In this document: in pieces, positions 5,756 to 39,718 of the stretch
How positions within the stretch are numbered: the first letter of the stretch is position 1
Layout of the letters: the number at the start of each line of letters is the position of its first letter
Made by a program: the position numbers and the translations under genes
Notes under the pieces: generated by a model
Seen by the model: the letters and a program-made list of their open reading frames with translations, nothing else
What the model was told of the DNA's origin: nothing
Databases searched by the model: none
Source of the DNA: Parvibaculaceae bacterium Mf 1.05b.01
GTDB lineage: Bacteria; Pseudomonadota; Alphaproteobacteria; Parvibaculales; Parvibaculaceae
Direction: 5' to 3'
Length of the DNA: 64,000 nt
NCBI GenBank assembly: GCA_000509225.1
Contig: BAOK01000001.1
Location: forward strand, 124,001 to 188,000

Positions 5756-6583
5756 ATGCGCGCAGGGATCCTTTTTTCGACAGCGCTTCATGGAGGGCTT
5801 CTGGCCGCCATGTTTATTGCGTTGCCGGATACAGAGCCCCTTCAGGTGGCGCCCAGTCGGGCGCTGCCGGTTGAGCTTGTCACGATCGATGAGTTCACAA
5901 ACCTGCGCGATATTCCCCGTCCGGAGCCAACGCCCGAACCGCCTGCAGAAGCAATTGCTGAGCCCGAGCCTGAACCAGAACCCATCGCTGAACTGCTTCC
6001 TGAGCCGGAACCTGCACCGGTTCCCGAGCCAGAACCAGCGCCTGCCCCTGAGCCCGAGCCCGCCCCAGAGCCGGCTCCGGAGCCAGAGCCCGAACCGGAA
6101 CCAGAGCCGAAACCGCAGGCGAAACCGACCCCTCCGCGGGAAGAACCCAAGCCGGCCTTTGACCCAACGCAGATTGCAGCGCTTCTGGACAAACTTCCGG
6201 AAGAGGAGCCTCAGCCCGTGCGCCGCAGTGAACCTCAGCGGGCGCGACAGGCAGGGCCTGCTGCTCAGCTCACCATGTCTGAGATTGATGCCTTCAAGGT
6301 TCAGATGCGCCGGTGCTGGAGTGTTCCAGCGGGCGCGGCCAATGCAGCGAGCCTTGTGGTTCGCATCAAAGTGTTCTTGCGCCCCGACGGATCGCTCTCC
6401 CAACCGCCGCAATTGATTAATAATTCCAGACTTTTGTCCGGTGACAGCTATTTCAGGGCGGCCGCCGACAGTGCCATGCGGGCCATCCGGCGGTGTGCGC
6501 CGTTCCGGATGCCTGCAGACAAATATGCGTCCTGGCGCGAAATTGATCTCAATTTCGACCCGCGAGAAATGTTGGGTGGTTAA
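5756..6583 (+). CDS. tolA: TolA, Pro/Glu-rich envelope-spanning protein
   Basis: 275 residues. A short N-terminal membrane anchor (about 4-23) is followed by a periplasmic rod. Instead of the Ala/Lys helix of E. coli TolA, the rod is a low-complexity Pro-Glu/Pro-Ala repeat (about 54-130, runs such as [13 protein letters not shown]). The C-terminal domain (about 175-275) has the TolA/TonB-like elements [12 protein letters not shown] and [14 protein letters not shown]. It links TolQR to TolB and Pal. The repeat makes the DNA highly repetitive and opens spurious frames on the other strand. Confidence 0.92.
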
Positions 6584-6636
6584 CGTTCTTGCCACATTGC
6601 GGTCACCTGAAGGGTGATAGTGAGGGAATACGAGAT

Positions 6637-21889: not shown

Positions 21890-21949
21890 TCGGCGGTGGG
21901 CCACCTCTCCCCACCGAGAGGCGACTATCTGTGAGGATAGATACAGATA
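21890..21949 (+). ncRNA. serC leader RNA (putative regulatory 5' UTR)
   Basis: CGGTGGG (21894-21900) pairs with CCCACCG (21910-21916). CTATC (21925-21929) pairs with GATAG (21936-21940), which hides part of the SD (GAGGAT, 21934-21939). An alternative stem, TATCTGT (21926-21932) with ACAGATA (21943-21949), would instead put the SD in its loop. A structured serC motif upstream of serC is known in alphaproteobacteria; I assign this by position and form, without a model search. Confidence 0.6.
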
Positions 21950-28829: not shown

Positions 28830-29012
28830 TGGGTTCCCTCTCTCTTGGTTTGGCCGTTTTTACGCCCGGTTGCGGAGGAATCATGCCTGCCTTCGACCTG
28901 TTTGGCGAGAGGGCGGGGCAAACGGTCCGGACATCAAAGAAAAATTGGCCCGCAATTTCGAATCGACCTGCTCTGGCTTTGACGGTTTCGCGTGAAAAGT
29001 GCACACTCTCCT

Positions 29013-29115
29013 CATCCGAGGGGTGTCTGCTTTTATGTGTTTGGAGCGGGCTGAGATGGCCAGGTGGCTAGACCCTTAGAACCTGATCCGGGTCATGCCG
29101 GCGAAGGGACGGAGT
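29013..29115 (+). ncRNA. TPP riboswitch (THI element)
   Basis: Conserved aptamer blocks are in order: GAGGGGTG, GGCTGAGATGG, ACCCTTAGAACCTGATC, GGGTCATGCCGGCGAAGGGA. It precedes thiC by 66 nt. In the expression platform CCTCT (29155-29159) can pair with AGAGG (29168-29172), which is the SD of thiC, so control is probably by hiding the ribosome site when thiamine diphosphate is bound. Confidence 0.95.
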
Positions 29116-29117
29116 AG

Positions 29118-31037
<1,920 letters not shown>

Positions 31038-35934: not shown

Positions 35935-36867
35935 TTAGTTCAGCAAATCGTCCCGTGCAGCGCGCCGCTCAGCGGCCTGTTCGCTTACCGCATCGCGCAT
36001 GGCTTTTTGCAGCTTTTCAAAAGCACGCACTTCAATCTGGCGGACACGTTCGCGGCTGATGCCATATTCCTGGCTCAGGTCCTCAAGGGTTGAGGGATTA
36101 TCCTTCAAGCGCCGTTCGGTGAGGATGTGCATTTCCCGTTCGTTGAGCGATTGCATCGCCGCATGCAGCATGTCGCGGCGCACATTGAGTTCTTCTTTTT
36201 CACCAAGCTCGGCTTCCTGGTCGGTGCTTTCATCGACCAGCCAATCCTGCCATTCGCCGCCGTCGGCTTCTGCGTTGCGGATTGGCGCGTTGAGGGAATT
36301 GTCCGGGCCGGACATGCGACGGTTCATATCCGTCACTTCTTTCTCCGTCACGCCCAAGCGTGTTGCGATCGTGGTGAGGTTTTCCGGCTTCAGGTCGCCT
36401 TCTTCAAAAGCCTGCAGCTGGCCTTTCACCTTGCGGAGATTGAAGAAGAGTTTTTTCTGCGCCGCAGTCGTGCCCATTTTTACGAGCGACCAGGAGCGCA
36501 GGATGTATTCCTGAATGGCTGCCCGGATCCACCACATGGCATAAGTCGCGAGGCGGAAGCCTTTCTCAGGCTCAAAGCGCTTCACGGCCTGCATAAGGCC
36601 CACATTGCCTTCGGAGATCACTTCGCCTGTTGGCAGGCCATAGCCGCGATAGCCCATGGCGATTTTTGCCACGAGACGCAGATGGCTGGTCACCATCTTC
36701 TCTGCCGCATCAGGGTCTTCATGTTCTTTGAAGCGTTTTGCCAACATGTATTCTTCCTGCGGCTCCAGCATCGGAAATTTGCGGATTTCCTGCAGATAGC
36801 GCGACAGAGACTGCTCCGGCGTAACCGCCGGCATGCGTGACGTGGTGCTTGTTGGTGTAGTCGCCAT
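35935..36867 (-). CDS. rpoH: RNA polymerase heat-shock sigma factor RpoH
   Basis: 310 residues from ATG 36867 (GAAGGGG SD). Sigma-70 regions 2 and 4 are clear. The RpoH box QKKLFFNLRK (137-146) separates it from other sigma factors. Region 4.2 ends SQEYGISRERVRQIEVRAFEKLQ. It directs heat-shock and, in many alphaproteobacteria, oxidative-stress genes. It is downstream of rluD on the same strand, with its own upstream gap of about 90 nt. Confidence 0.96.
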   Translation of the reverse strand: MATTPTSTTSRMPAVTPEQSLSRYLQEIRKFPMLEPQEEYMLAKRFKEHEDPDAAEKMVTSHLRLVAKIAMGYRGYGLPTGEVISEGNVGLMQAVKRFEPEKGFRLATYAMWWIRAAIQEYILRSWSLVKMGTTAAQKKLFFNLRKVKGQLQAFEEGDLKPENLTTIATRLGVTEKEVTDMNRRMSGPDNSLNAPIRNAEADGGEWQDWLVDESTDQEAELGEKEELNVRRDMLHAAMQSLNEREMHILTERRLKDNPSTLEDLSQEYGISRERVRQIEVRAFEKLQKAMRDAVSEQAAERRAARDDLLN

Positions 36868-36958
36868 GATGACCCCCTTCAATGATGCGTACTCAGCATC
36901 TTAAGTCGTCTTCATATAGGGGGGGATTGGGGCTAAAAAAAGGGCATTCACTTATTGT

Positions 36959-38008
36959 TTATAGGGATTCTAAGGCTGACAGCAGGTCCGCCAGTTCCCG
37001 GGGTAAAGGGCTCTCAAAGCGCAGTTTTTCCCCAGTTTCTGGGTGTTCAAAGCCCAATAGATGGGCGTGGAGCGCCTGGCGGCCCAGCCTATCTAGAGCG
37101 CTCTTCCCGGCTTCAGAGAGCTTCACAGAGCGGTTCTTGTGTGCAGCGCCATAAACACTGTCCCCTAAGATCGGGTGGCCCAAATGGGTCATATGGACCC
37201 TGATCTGGTGGGTGCGGCCGGTTTCCAGGTGGCAGGTAACCTGGCTTACCAGCGGTTCCGGCTCTCCAAAACTTTGCGCAACTTTGTAATGGGTGATGGC
37301 TTCCCGGGCGCCCTGGGCGTCCACAGAGCGTGTGACGGTGATTTTCAGCCGATTGTGGCGACTGCGGGCAAGGGGCGCGTTCACCGTGCCTTTGCTCGGG
37401 TGTGGTTTCCCCCAAACGAAGGCGGTGTAGGCGCGCTCCAATCGTCCGTCGCGGCCGTGAATGGCAAATTGCTCCTGCAGGTTTTTCAGCGCGGCTTCTG
37501 TTTTGGCGACGACCATCAGACCGCTCGTTTCCTTGTCCAGCCGGTGAACAATGCCCGGGCGGAGCTCGGTGCCTATGCCGGTGAAGTCCGGACCGCAATG
37601 GGCAAGGAGCGCATTCACCAAAGTGCCATCAGGTGACCCTGGCGCTGGATGGACGACCAGTCCCGCCGGCTTGTCGATGACAATCAGCTGAGCATCCTCG
37701 TGCACGATGGTAAGGGGGATGTCCTCGGGCTGTGGTGTGGCGGGACCCGGTGTTGGCAGGGTGATGCTATAGGTCTCGTCCTGTTTGACCCGGTACGCGA
37801 CCTCACCTATCGTCCGCTCCTCACTGGATGCGCCTTGCGTCACATGCCCTTCCTCGATCAGCGTGCGAATGCGTGACCTGCTTGGGGCAGGGTTAAGGGT
37901 TTCCAGTGCGGTTGCGAGATAGCGGTCAAGCCGGGCTCCCGCTTCCTCTTCACTGACACACACGGTGTGGCGCGTGCCGCCCGTGACATTCAAGGTTGAT
38001 AAACTCAT
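36959..38008 (-). CDS. rluD: 23S rRNA pseudouridine synthase RluD
   Basis: 349 residues. An S4 domain at about 15-75 (RLDRYLATAL) is followed by the RluA-type catalytic domain. Catalytic D158 is in HRLDKETSGLMVVAK, and GRTHQIRVHMTHLGHPILGD is the second signature. It modifies helix 69 of 23S rRNA. I chose the ATG at 38008; longer frames to 38188 would run through the divergent gene. That start overlaps the ATG of the divergent gene within CATG. Confidence 0.94.
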   Translation of the reverse strand: MSLSTLNVTGGTRHTVCVSEEEAGARLDRYLATALETLNPAPSRSRIRTLIEEGHVTQGASSEERTIGEVAYRVKQDETYSITLPTPGPATPQPEDIPLTIVHEDAQLIVIDKPAGLVVHPAPGSPDGTLVNALLAHCGPDFTGIGTELRPGIVHRLDKETSGLMVVAKTEAALKNLQEQFAIHGRDGRLERAYTAFVWGKPHPSKGTVNAPLARSRHNRLKITVTRSVDAQGAREAITHYKVAQSFGEPEPLVSQVTCHLETGRTHQIRVHMTHLGHPILGDSVYGAAHKNRSVKLSEAGKSALDRLGRQALHAHLLGFEHPETGEKLRFESPLPRELADLLSALESL

Positions 38009-38453
38009 GCCGGACAATAGCGAACCTAACGGTGCCATGGAAACACCCTCCGCCACCGAAAAGGGGGCCGACACTGAAATTGGGCCCGTCACGCAAATGG
38101 AGGCTGTGAAAGAACGGCCTGTATTGTTCGCCTCTGTCATTGTGATGGGTGTGTTGATCGTTATCGGGCTGATTGTTGTGTTTGGCACGATTATCTATCG
38201 GTTGAGTTCGAGCCCAGATCCCTCCACGGTCCCAGTCCGGGGTCAGTTCGGGTCTGTGGATGTGCCTGTTGCGGAAGGCACTGCGGTTGTGCGCACAACC
38301 TTTATTGAGGACCGGCTTTCGATCGTGACCACCAACGAAGGTGTGCTTGAGGTGATCATTGTTGATACCAAGCGCGGCGTAGAGCTTGGCCGTGTTCGTC
38401 TGGTCGCTGATGGTGCGCTGTCTGGGCCAGTGGAGCCGCCCGCTGCGGAATAG
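38007..38453 (+). CDS. Single-pass membrane protein, DUF6476-like
   Basis: 148 residues. A polar, acidic cytoplasmic tail (about 1-38), one membrane helix (about 40-63), then a small beta-rich domain with TAVVRTTFIEDRLSIVTTNEG and VIIVDTKRGVELGRVRL. Proteins of this form occur next to rluD in other alphaproteobacteria and are filed as DUF6476; I assign it by form and position. The function is unknown. ATG 38037 is an alternative start that avoids overlap with rluD. Confidence 0.72.
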   Translation: MPDNSEPNGAMETPSATEKGADTEIGPVTQMEAVKERPVLFASVIVMGVLIVIGLIVVFGTIIYRLSSSPDPSTVPVRGQFGSVDVPVAEGTAVVRTTFIEDRLSIVTTNEGVLEVIIVDTKRGVELGRVRLVADGALSGPVEPPAAE

Positions 38454-38517: not shown

Positions 38518-38606
38518 GAAAAAGGCCGCTCGCACGGGGGGAGGAGGAGTGTGCAAGCGGCCTATCAAGCCTGTGGCCTTGGGAGGAGGTAAGGCCGGGC
38601 TCTTGA
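38518..38606 (-). ncRNA. Anti-Shine-Dalgarno small RNA (CcsR/cuckoo or alpha-r14 type)
   Basis: Predicted RNA of about 88 nt. Hairpin 1: GGCCUU (38596-38591), loop ACCUCCUCCC, AAGGCC (38580-38575), extended by AGCC/GGCU. Hairpin 2, also the terminator: AGGCCGCU-u-GCAC (38563-38551) with GUGC-g-AGCGGCCU (38535-38523), loop containing CCUCCUCCC, then U5. Both loops are complementary to GGAGG SD sites. This two-loop CCUCCUCCC design is known from alphaproteobacterial CcsR/cuckoo sRNAs, and an ultraconserved anti-SD loop from alpha-r14 sRNAs. A DUF1127 gene, the usual host of cuckoo RNAs, is not seen upstream. Confidence 0.8.
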
Positions 38607-38611
38607 GAACC

Positions 38612-38640
38612 TTTATCTGCTGAATATGACAAGTTGTCAA
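38612..38640 (-). promoter_or_regulatory. Promoter and operator of the anti-SD small RNA
   Basis: On the minus strand TTGACA (38640-38635), 17 nt, GATAAA (38617-38612): a perfect -35, ideal spacing and a 4/6 -10. The perfect palindrome TGACAA-G-TTGTCA (38627-38639) overlaps the -35, so a repressor bound there would block transcription. Confidence 0.65.
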
Positions 38641-38926
38641 CATAGAAATGGTGCGATGCAAAATAAACTGCGTACAACTTAGTAAGTATTATTCTCTTCT
38701 AAGCTATTGAAATAATTATATATTTTTTGAAACTCGTAAGAAAGACTCACAACTTTTTCTTGCAAATGCGTTGGTTTGACGCAGCGCGCTCAGGCCAAAA
38801 GGGGCGGTTTTCGCGCTCGATTTTCGTCCCCTTTGGTGGATTTGGCGGAATCAGATGTGTGTCGCCTGTTGCTCAGGTAAGCGACGGGTCTTACGGTCCC
38901 CTTGGTGGTCGATTTGGAGGAGAGAT
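38641..38926. other. AT-rich intergenic stretch upstream of the DUF2189 gene
   Basis: About 286 nt with no gene I can support. 38660-38760 is clearly richer in A and T than its surroundings. No FNR box of TTGAT-N4-ATCAA form was found. The end carries the SD of the DUF2189 gene. Confidence 0.35.
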
Positions 38927-39718
38927 ATGGCGGTAACTACCGGGAATCCGGCCACAGAAAACGGACCACAAGCGTCAGGGAATCTGACATTGGATGACCC
39001 CTGGCGGTGGATGTCCGCTGGTTGGCGCGACATGTGGGCCATGCCCGGCATTAGCCTTTTCTACGGCGTGTTGTTTGCCACCATTTCCTTGTTGTTGGCA
39101 CTCTCGCTCTTTCTGGTGGAACTCAGTTCCATTGTGCTGCCTCTGGCGGCTGGCTTCATGCTGGTTGGACCTCTTTTCGCTGTTGGGCTCTATGAAGCAA
39201 GCCGACGTCTTGAAAGCGGTGAAGCGTTGAACCTGAAGGATGTCCTGCTTGTCAAAACAGCCTCCCCCGCTCAGCTCGCCTTTCTAGGAGCGCTGTTGAT
39301 GCTGGCGCTTATGGCATGGATGCGGATTGCCAGTCTGTTGTTTGCCTTGTTTTTTGGCCTGGAAGGGTTTCCGCCGCTGCCTGACTTTCTGCCGACACTT
39401 GTCTTCAGCCCCTATGGTCTCGGGCTTTTGGTTGTGGGAACGGGCGTCGGTGCCCTGATCGCTTTTGCTGTCTTTGCGGTTTCTGCGCTGTCAGTGCCGA
39501 TGTTGATGCATCGGGATGTGGACGCCATTAGTGCGGTTCTCGCCAGTGTCCGCGTGGTGCGTGAGAACCCGGGGCCGATGCTGTTATGGGCCTGGATCAT
39601 CGCGGTGGTGATGGCGGTGGGTATGGCGACATTCTTTGTCGGCATGGTGCTGGCTTTCCCGCTCGTGGGGCATGCGACATGGCATGCCTATAGGGCGACC
39701 ATTTCAGACGCAGATTAA
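38927..39718 (+). CDS. DUF2189 integral membrane protein
   Basis: 263 residues from ATG 38927, behind GGAGGAGAG, itself a strong SD and so a good match to the anti-SD RNA nearby. The order is a short cytoplasmic start with DDPWRWMSAGWRDM, then about six membrane helices with AAGFMLVGPLFAVGLYEASRRLE typical of the family. DUF2189 genes often sit beside cytochrome cbb3 or denitrification genes, as here (convergent with ccoS). Function unknown. Confidence 0.86.
   Translation: MAVTTGNPATENGPQASGNLTLDDPWRWMSAGWRDMWAMPGISLFYGVLFATISLLLALSLFLVELSSIVLPLAAGFMLVGPLFAVGLYEASRRLESGEALNLKDVLLVKTASPAQLAFLGALLMLALMAWMRIASLLFALFFGLEGFPPLPDFLPTLVFSPYGLGLLVVGTGVGALIAFAVFAVSALSVPMLMHRDVDAISAVLASVRVVRENPGPMLLWAWIIAVVMAVGMATFFVGMVLAFPLVGHATWHAYRATISDAD

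Follow-up and report, generated by a model that had tools for sequence, protein, structure and literature searches.

A conserved, Parvibaculaceae-wide candidate for an anti-Shine–Dalgarno (anti-SD) small RNA (sRNA) is located on the minus strand at positions 38519–38606 of the window, as we call the whole 64,000-nucleotide stretch of DNA analysed here. The gene-like unit is conserved together with its secondary structure and both of its promoter boxes, and its operator is common to the sRNA and to the gene of a TetR-family regulator. The best reading, to which we assign a probability of about two in three, is that of a trans-acting anti-SD sRNA under autoregulated TetR repression and a PhaR-like input, which would silence SD-rich mRNAs. 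An RNA of about 88 nt is thus predicted to act in trans from a stand-alone gene with a housekeeping-type promoter; the TetR protein would block the -35 element until a ligand, probably of an acyl type, appears, and would also control its own gene via TGACA-N3-TGTCA; a PhaR-like protein would tie the sRNA to the carbon-storage state from a second box that precedes the -35 element by 20 bp; and stable hairpins would expose CCUCCUCCC loops for pairing with GGAGG-type SD sites, so that initiation on SD-rich mRNAs is blocked. RNAs with CCUCCUCCC hairpins are found in several alphaproteobacterial groups, and those compared are linked to stress sigma factors or to regulators of the LysR type; in the present case, comparison across genomes points to one TetR as the likely switch, and a lineage-by-lineage rewiring of such RNAs to new regulators is suggested.

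The putative promoter consists of the -35 hexamer TTGACA (38635–38640) and, after a 17-nt spacer, the -10-like hexamer GATAAA (38612–38617), all features of the unit being on the minus strand. The predicted transcript, whose 5′ end is approximate, contains hairpin 1 (38567–38602), with the loop ACCUCCUCCC at 38590–38581 as anti-SD loop 1, and hairpin 2 (38524–38562), the terminator stem, whose loop with CUCCUCCUCCCCCC at 38550–38536 is anti-SD loop 2; a U-run (38519–38523) on its 3′ side makes up a predicted intrinsic terminator. Both loops contain CCUCCUCCC, and CCTCCTCCC occurs at 38589–38581 and again at 38547–38539. ACCUCCU is presumably common to the first loop and the 3′ end of 16S rRNA. 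Folding of 38606–38516 yields the two hairpins at -39.8 kcal/mol (z = -6.2), and none of 200 shuffled sequences is equally stable. The preliminary description of this DNA, made from the letters, had given TTGACA-N17-GATAAA, two CCUCCUCCC-loop hairpins and a U-run on the minus strand, and a perfect palindrome over the -35 element; sequence and fold bear it out for 38640–38519, the palindrome being the 13-bp TGACAA-C-TTGTCA at 38639–38627 (minus-strand reading). The genome search for the loop motif that it had proposed returns CCTCCTCCC 23 times in 3.82 Mb, against 32 for the reversed control pattern, so that the motif is not rare alone, but two copies less than 60 nt apart on one strand are unexpected, a rough estimate from the observed density being about 0.002 per genome. 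TTGACA is present in all 28 distinct promoters compared, 24 of which were chosen by a pattern containing it, and the first four positions of the -10-like hexamer are G in 26, A in 28, T in 25 and A in 27 of them.

The sRNA region was found by BLAST in all six genus relatives among 61 genomes searched. A covariance model, R1, matches 36 of 40 Parvibaculaceae genomes, some of which also contributed sequences to it, and 27 of the 27 good ones (at least 90% complete, at most 5% contaminated); the four genomes without a match are 68–83% complete. The absence of the paired loops from close relatives had been named beforehand as evidence against the RNA; they are kept. In the window's own genome (G000), the match at G000:C2:162521–162606 corresponds to window positions 38521–38606, this copy itself being part of the model. 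Three additional weak matches (antisense in G021, and in G001 and G007) all lack the operator.

Covariation was assessed on 19 of 29 collected copies (alignment A1), ten having been dropped as near-duplicates, among them one (L068) for an inverted second loop. RNAalifold independently recovers both stems from these copies. Compensatory changes are present at 14 of 18 base pairs, with none of 500 shuffles matching the covariation score, and 95.3% of cells are paired versus 76.2% after shuffling and 28–48% with slid structures. All six pairs of the inner stem of hairpin 1 show a compensatory change, as do 8 of the 12 pairs of hairpin 2, where 99.1% of cells are paired, while the first-loop CCUCCUCCC and the first CCTCCTCCC are identical in 19/19 copies. 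In the dropped copy L068 (metagenome-assembled genome, MAG, CAJXOU010000060.1, about 6466–6600), the second anti-SD loop is inverted and reads GGGGGAGGAGGGAGG with its stem arms intact; this is either a real inversion or an assembly artefact, seen in one of 25 named copies. In most Parvibaculum copies (e.g., L051, L056, and L064), the U-run found in the window's genus is absent after the last hairpin, so 3′ end formation may differ there.

When one genome per species was scanned across 84,980 species, the pattern TTGACANNNTGTCA-N25-50-CCTCCTCCC occurred in 32 stretches, and the sRNA is seen in 25 of them (24 genomes), one stretch (L047) ending at a contig edge. The 25 copies are labelled Parvibaculum, Tepidicaulis, Rhodobiaceae/Parvibaculaceae, or just Hyphomicrobiales or Alphaproteobacteria; NCBI taxonomy places Parvibaculaceae within Hyphomicrobiales, and the 40-genome family set is taken to be Parvibaculaceae from contigs and labels in common. 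The other seven stretches come from unrelated bacteria and by eye have no second hairpin, and were treated as chance. One MAG, NORP32 (G005), carries the sRNA region twice, apparently identically, on contigs C5 and C9 (L044 and L061). Across the class, under stricter filters, R1 matches 11 of 387 genomes, six of them of its own family; the five out-of-family matches score 38–48 bits, and three of these, all from a single other family, are tandem arrays of CCUCCUCCC. Such tandem hairpin arrays in another alphaproteobacterial family were noted at L072, L080, L178 (G057), L180 (G322), and L181–L182 (G383).

At Rfam gathering thresholds, only a TPP riboswitch (29009–29126, plus strand, 76.6 bits) and a serC leader RNA (21894–21945, plus strand, 67.7 bits) are called in the window, the sRNA stretch not being among the calls. 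A lax threshold gives full-length alignments of the sRNA stretch to ar14 (36.2 bits), CcsR1 (33.5 bits), and 6C RNA (27.3 bits), whose gathering scores are 58.8 (RF02344), 65.3 (RF02791), and 47 (RF01066), respectively. AbcR is, by name, presumably not one of the five families that the lax search returned. The search with CcsR and ar14 models, proposed in the preliminary description, thus leaves both below threshold: for CcsR1, 0/40 family genomes exceed the cut-off and 16/40 match at E ≤ 0.01, and for ar14, 0/192 class genomes exceed it and 8/192 match at E ≤ 0.001. As defined by Rfam, neither CcsR1 nor ar14 includes the sRNA; if the analogy holds, it would nevertheless work like them. No open-licence PMC paper treating Parvibaculum together with sRNAs and Rfam was found.

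With the CcsR1–4 or cuckoo RNAs of CIN1 loci (RF02791), the candidate shares its layout of two hairpins with CCUCCUCCC in both loops. According to PMC10253847, an RpoHI/RpoHII promoter drives a common transcript of a DUF1127 gene and the CcsR RNAs, from which the latter are excised by RNase E, whereas the sRNA discussed here is a single copy with its own, conserved sigma70-like promoter and has no DUF1127 gene. A motif scan, run with what we take to be the DUF1127 core motif, was negative in the window and in 59 of 59 Parvibaculaceae stretches, as the preliminary description had noted for the upstream region, and the family copies apparently lie outside CIN1-type loci; among six out-of-family stretches, the motif is present in two, L177 and L178 (the tandem-array locus of G057). 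An ordinary CcsR/cuckoo member that lost its DUF1127 gene and kept stress-sigma control as in Rhodobacter would account for the full-length sub-threshold CcsR1 alignment, the identical layout, and the adjoining rpoH gene. We consider it unlikely in view of the distance to the cut-off (33.5 vs. 65.3 bits, with no family genome above it), the conserved TTGACA/GATA promoter, the 59 motif-free stretches, and the presence of the same operator at a TetR gene.

A close parallel in gene organization is ar14, or NfeR1, of Sinorhizobium and relatives (RF02344), an sRNA that according to PMC10746234 also stands alone, has a sigma70 promoter and carries an activator box upstream of it. The candidate resembles it in standing alone, in its sigma70-type promoter and CCUCCUCCC loops, and in having a regulator box upstream of the -35 element, but NfeR1 has three anti-SD motifs and LsrB/NtrC control according to the same source, as opposed to two loops, a TetR-type operator, and a PhaR-like box here. 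A divergent ortholog of ar14/NfeR1, whose promoter was rewired from LsrB/NtrC to TetR/PhaR, could explain the top bit score and the same anti-SD loop along with this organization. Such descent appears unlikely, as the ar14 consensus comprises three CUCCUCCC-loop hairpins, of which the sRNA has two, the first hairpin of the model falling on promoter DNA, and the score stays below the cut-off; moreover, the LsrB box TGCA-N6-GCAT is absent within 120 nt from all 35 family promoters, the window's included. AbcR1 and AbcR2 of Rhizobiales likewise direct a CUCCUCCC loop against translation start regions (PMC8844928), but have one loop motif and a second motif between the stem-loops. The same paper reports activation of AbcR1 by the LysR-type LsrB, an effect not seen in S. 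meliloti according to PMC7486931. Our preferred reading of a stand-alone, differently regulated branch, already raised in the preliminary description, is supported by the sub-threshold Rfam scores, the absence of a DUF1127-like motif, and the conservation of the -35, -10, and operator elements.

On the strand of the sRNA, an RluA/RluD-type pseudouridine synthase gene (36959–38188, its ORF start probably further in) and rpoH (35935–36882; NCBIfam rpoH_proteo, 382 bits) are syntenic neighbors, while a 162-aa ORF matching no Pfam family (37965–38453) lies on the opposite, plus strand between rluD and the sRNA, and a DUF2189 membrane protein gene (38855–39718, plus strand; Pfam PF09955, 128 bits) lies on its other side. 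When window proteins were compared by tblastn with eight stretches carrying the sRNA, several of which end early, rluD on the same strand was found nearby in 8/8, rpoH and the 162-aa ORF in 6/8 each, and DUF2189 in 2/8. The recurrence of rluD, rpoH, and the 162-aa ORF marks one orthologous locus. The proximity of rpoH to the sRNA, noted beforehand and amounting to 1.6 kb, is conserved synteny and gives no evidence of RpoH control, which was dropped as a candidate since the promoter is of the TTGACA/GATA type and the neighborhood is plain synteny. The constant position of rluD and often rpoH downstream on the sRNA strand might also suit a regulated attenuator or leader of these genes without any action in trans; this is very unlikely, because a terminator-like hairpin closes the sRNA in the window and the opposite-strand gene at 37965–38453, with homologs in six of the eight stretches, separates it from rluD.

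The regulator in the favored reading was reached through the operator TTGACA-ACT-TGTCA (38627–38640, minus strand), which overlaps the -35 hexamer. Its general form TTGACANNNTGTCA (TTGACA-N3-TGTCA) occurs three times in G000, preceding the sRNA, a TetR-family gene, and an acyl-CoA dehydrogenase gene, respectively, and the reversed control does not occur. The TetR gene, encoding 217 aa, lies outside the window at G000:C2:762569–763219, with the operator-type palindrome at G000:C2:762534–762547. The pattern is present in 40/40 family genomes. It stands 22–154 nt before the protein-match start in every one of the 39 family TetR matches (the only genome with no match is 57% complete), and its first base stands 33–36 nt before the R1 match in 34 of 36 genomes; since the pattern was derived from the sRNA, its presence at sRNAs found with it is partly circular, which does not apply to the TetR gene. 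Two genomes, G009 and G013, have a variant operator, TTGACAATTCGTCA, at the sRNA, although TetR is present. Because the sRNA and the TetR gene have the operator in common, we strongly infer that this TetR controls the sRNA, and the overlap with the -35 hexamer points to repression. The acyl-CoA dehydrogenase gene follows the operator in five of seven genus genomes; by eye, flavin-monooxygenase-like genes do so in the single genomes G006 and G009, and the remaining sites viewed look accidental. Among open-licence PMC papers, the one found to treat Parvibaculum together with a TetR and an operator concerns, by its abstract, another regulator.

TetR matches at E ≤ 1e-30 are found in 31 of 387 genomes of the class, six of them in the family. 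Of the 24 out-of-family TetR loci fetched, from nine families, 15 (seven families) have TGACA-N3-TGTCA close to where the match begins; the exact site is absent from the other nine, some of which have a near match. This site would appear to be the ancestral autoregulatory site of TetR, whose regulon the sRNA probably joined in Parvibaculaceae. Among 14 aligned TetRs, 28 columns are invariant, 23 of them within residues 36–81, the TetR_N stretch. An acyl-type ligand is plausible, given that the nearest solved relatives and folds include fatty-acid regulators (3whb and 5gp9) and that AMP-binding enzymes adjoin the TetR gene in three out-of-family loci examined. FadR-type TetR repressors (PDB 3whb and 5gp9) and EthR2 are among the nearest sequences or folds, with about 20% identity where shown. 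An AlphaFold model (mean pLDDT 82) resembles TetR folds of many ligands, and a ligand call from structure was rejected because the matches span many ligand classes.

The second promoter box, TGCATCGCACCA (38649–38660, minus strand), exactly matches the PhaR consensus TGCRNYGCASMA, which was derived from B. diazoefficiens (PMC6201568). Of the 35 family promoters compared, one more having been excluded at a contig edge, 34 have TGC-N3-GCA 19–21 bp upstream of TTGACA, and TGCRNYGCASMA is exact in 23 of the 35 and present with at most one mismatch in 33, these promoters being related by descent and the counts thus not independent; the corresponding frequencies in shuffled promoters are 0.4% for TGC-N3-GCA and 0.1% for the one-mismatch consensus. 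The PhaR DNA-binding domain PF07879 is found in 37/40 family genomes. In G000, the consensus, a degenerate pattern, has 64 sites versus 23 for the reversed control, and of 30 sites viewed, 20 fall within ORFs, as called mechanically, and the other 10 lie between ORFs. One intergenic site lies 115 nt before a PF07879 ORF, and another lies between zinc-dependent dehydrogenase and methylmalonyl-CoA mutase genes. A further site, by eye, directly precedes the point where a citrate synthase gene probably begins. VtlR/LsrB was rejected as a reader of the upstream box: the published boxes are GCAT-N3-TG-N3-T (PMC7486931), present in 1/35 promoters, and TGCA-N6-GCAT (PMC10746234), in 0/35; TGCA-N8-GCAT is seen in 7/35. 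The box is also compatible with the generic LysR pattern T-N11-A. Binding of PhaR here is plausible, with about even odds.

By analogy with NfeR1, which silences ntrB through redundant anti-SD motifs (PMC10746234), and with AbcR, the loops are expected to block SD-rich start sites. The SD of the acyl-CoA dehydrogenase gene can pair with eight bases of loop 1 (-12.9 kcal/mol). The preliminary description had pointed to the DUF2189 gene as a possible target; its SD GGAGGAGA is indeed present at 38916, but its duplex with the loops (-14.5 kcal/mol) ranks only about 10th among the 59 ORFs of the window, energies being rough since start codons were chosen mechanically, and the gene is near the sRNA in just two of the eight stretches, so it was rejected as a distinctive target. 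No ORF stands out, and SD complementarity alone selects no target. The invariant first loop and the lack of a distinctive target, along with a 6C-like double hairpin, would suit titration, either of a protein or by the RNA as an anti-SD mimic, instead of pairing with individual mRNAs. It seems quite unlikely, given that the 6C score of 27.3 bits is below the cut-off and that the NfeR1 and AbcR precedents (PMC10746234 and PMC8844928) pair at start sites.

At three TetR loci, 6 nt separate the -10-like hexamer from an ATG, which suggests that the TetR mRNA is leaderless and without an SD. Taken with the trans-acting anti-SD reading, this allows a broader, tentative proposal of a family-wide metabolic switch, in which PhaR, as the sensor of PHB, and TetR, as a sensor of the acyl-CoA type, would jointly gate an anti-SD RNA that lowers SD-led initiation, the TetR regulon being older and the sRNA gene having joined it in Parvibaculaceae; the TetR mRNA, being leaderless and SD-free, would escape its own sRNA. 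The sRNA may be linked to acyl-CoA and storage-polymer metabolism, and a cultivable genus (Parvibaculum, Tepidicaulis) allows separate tests of the input, the sRNA, and the common operator. In several families, the TetR gene is followed by a conserved protein of about 345–355 aa with no Pfam match (L184:5245–6312; L238:2108–3142).
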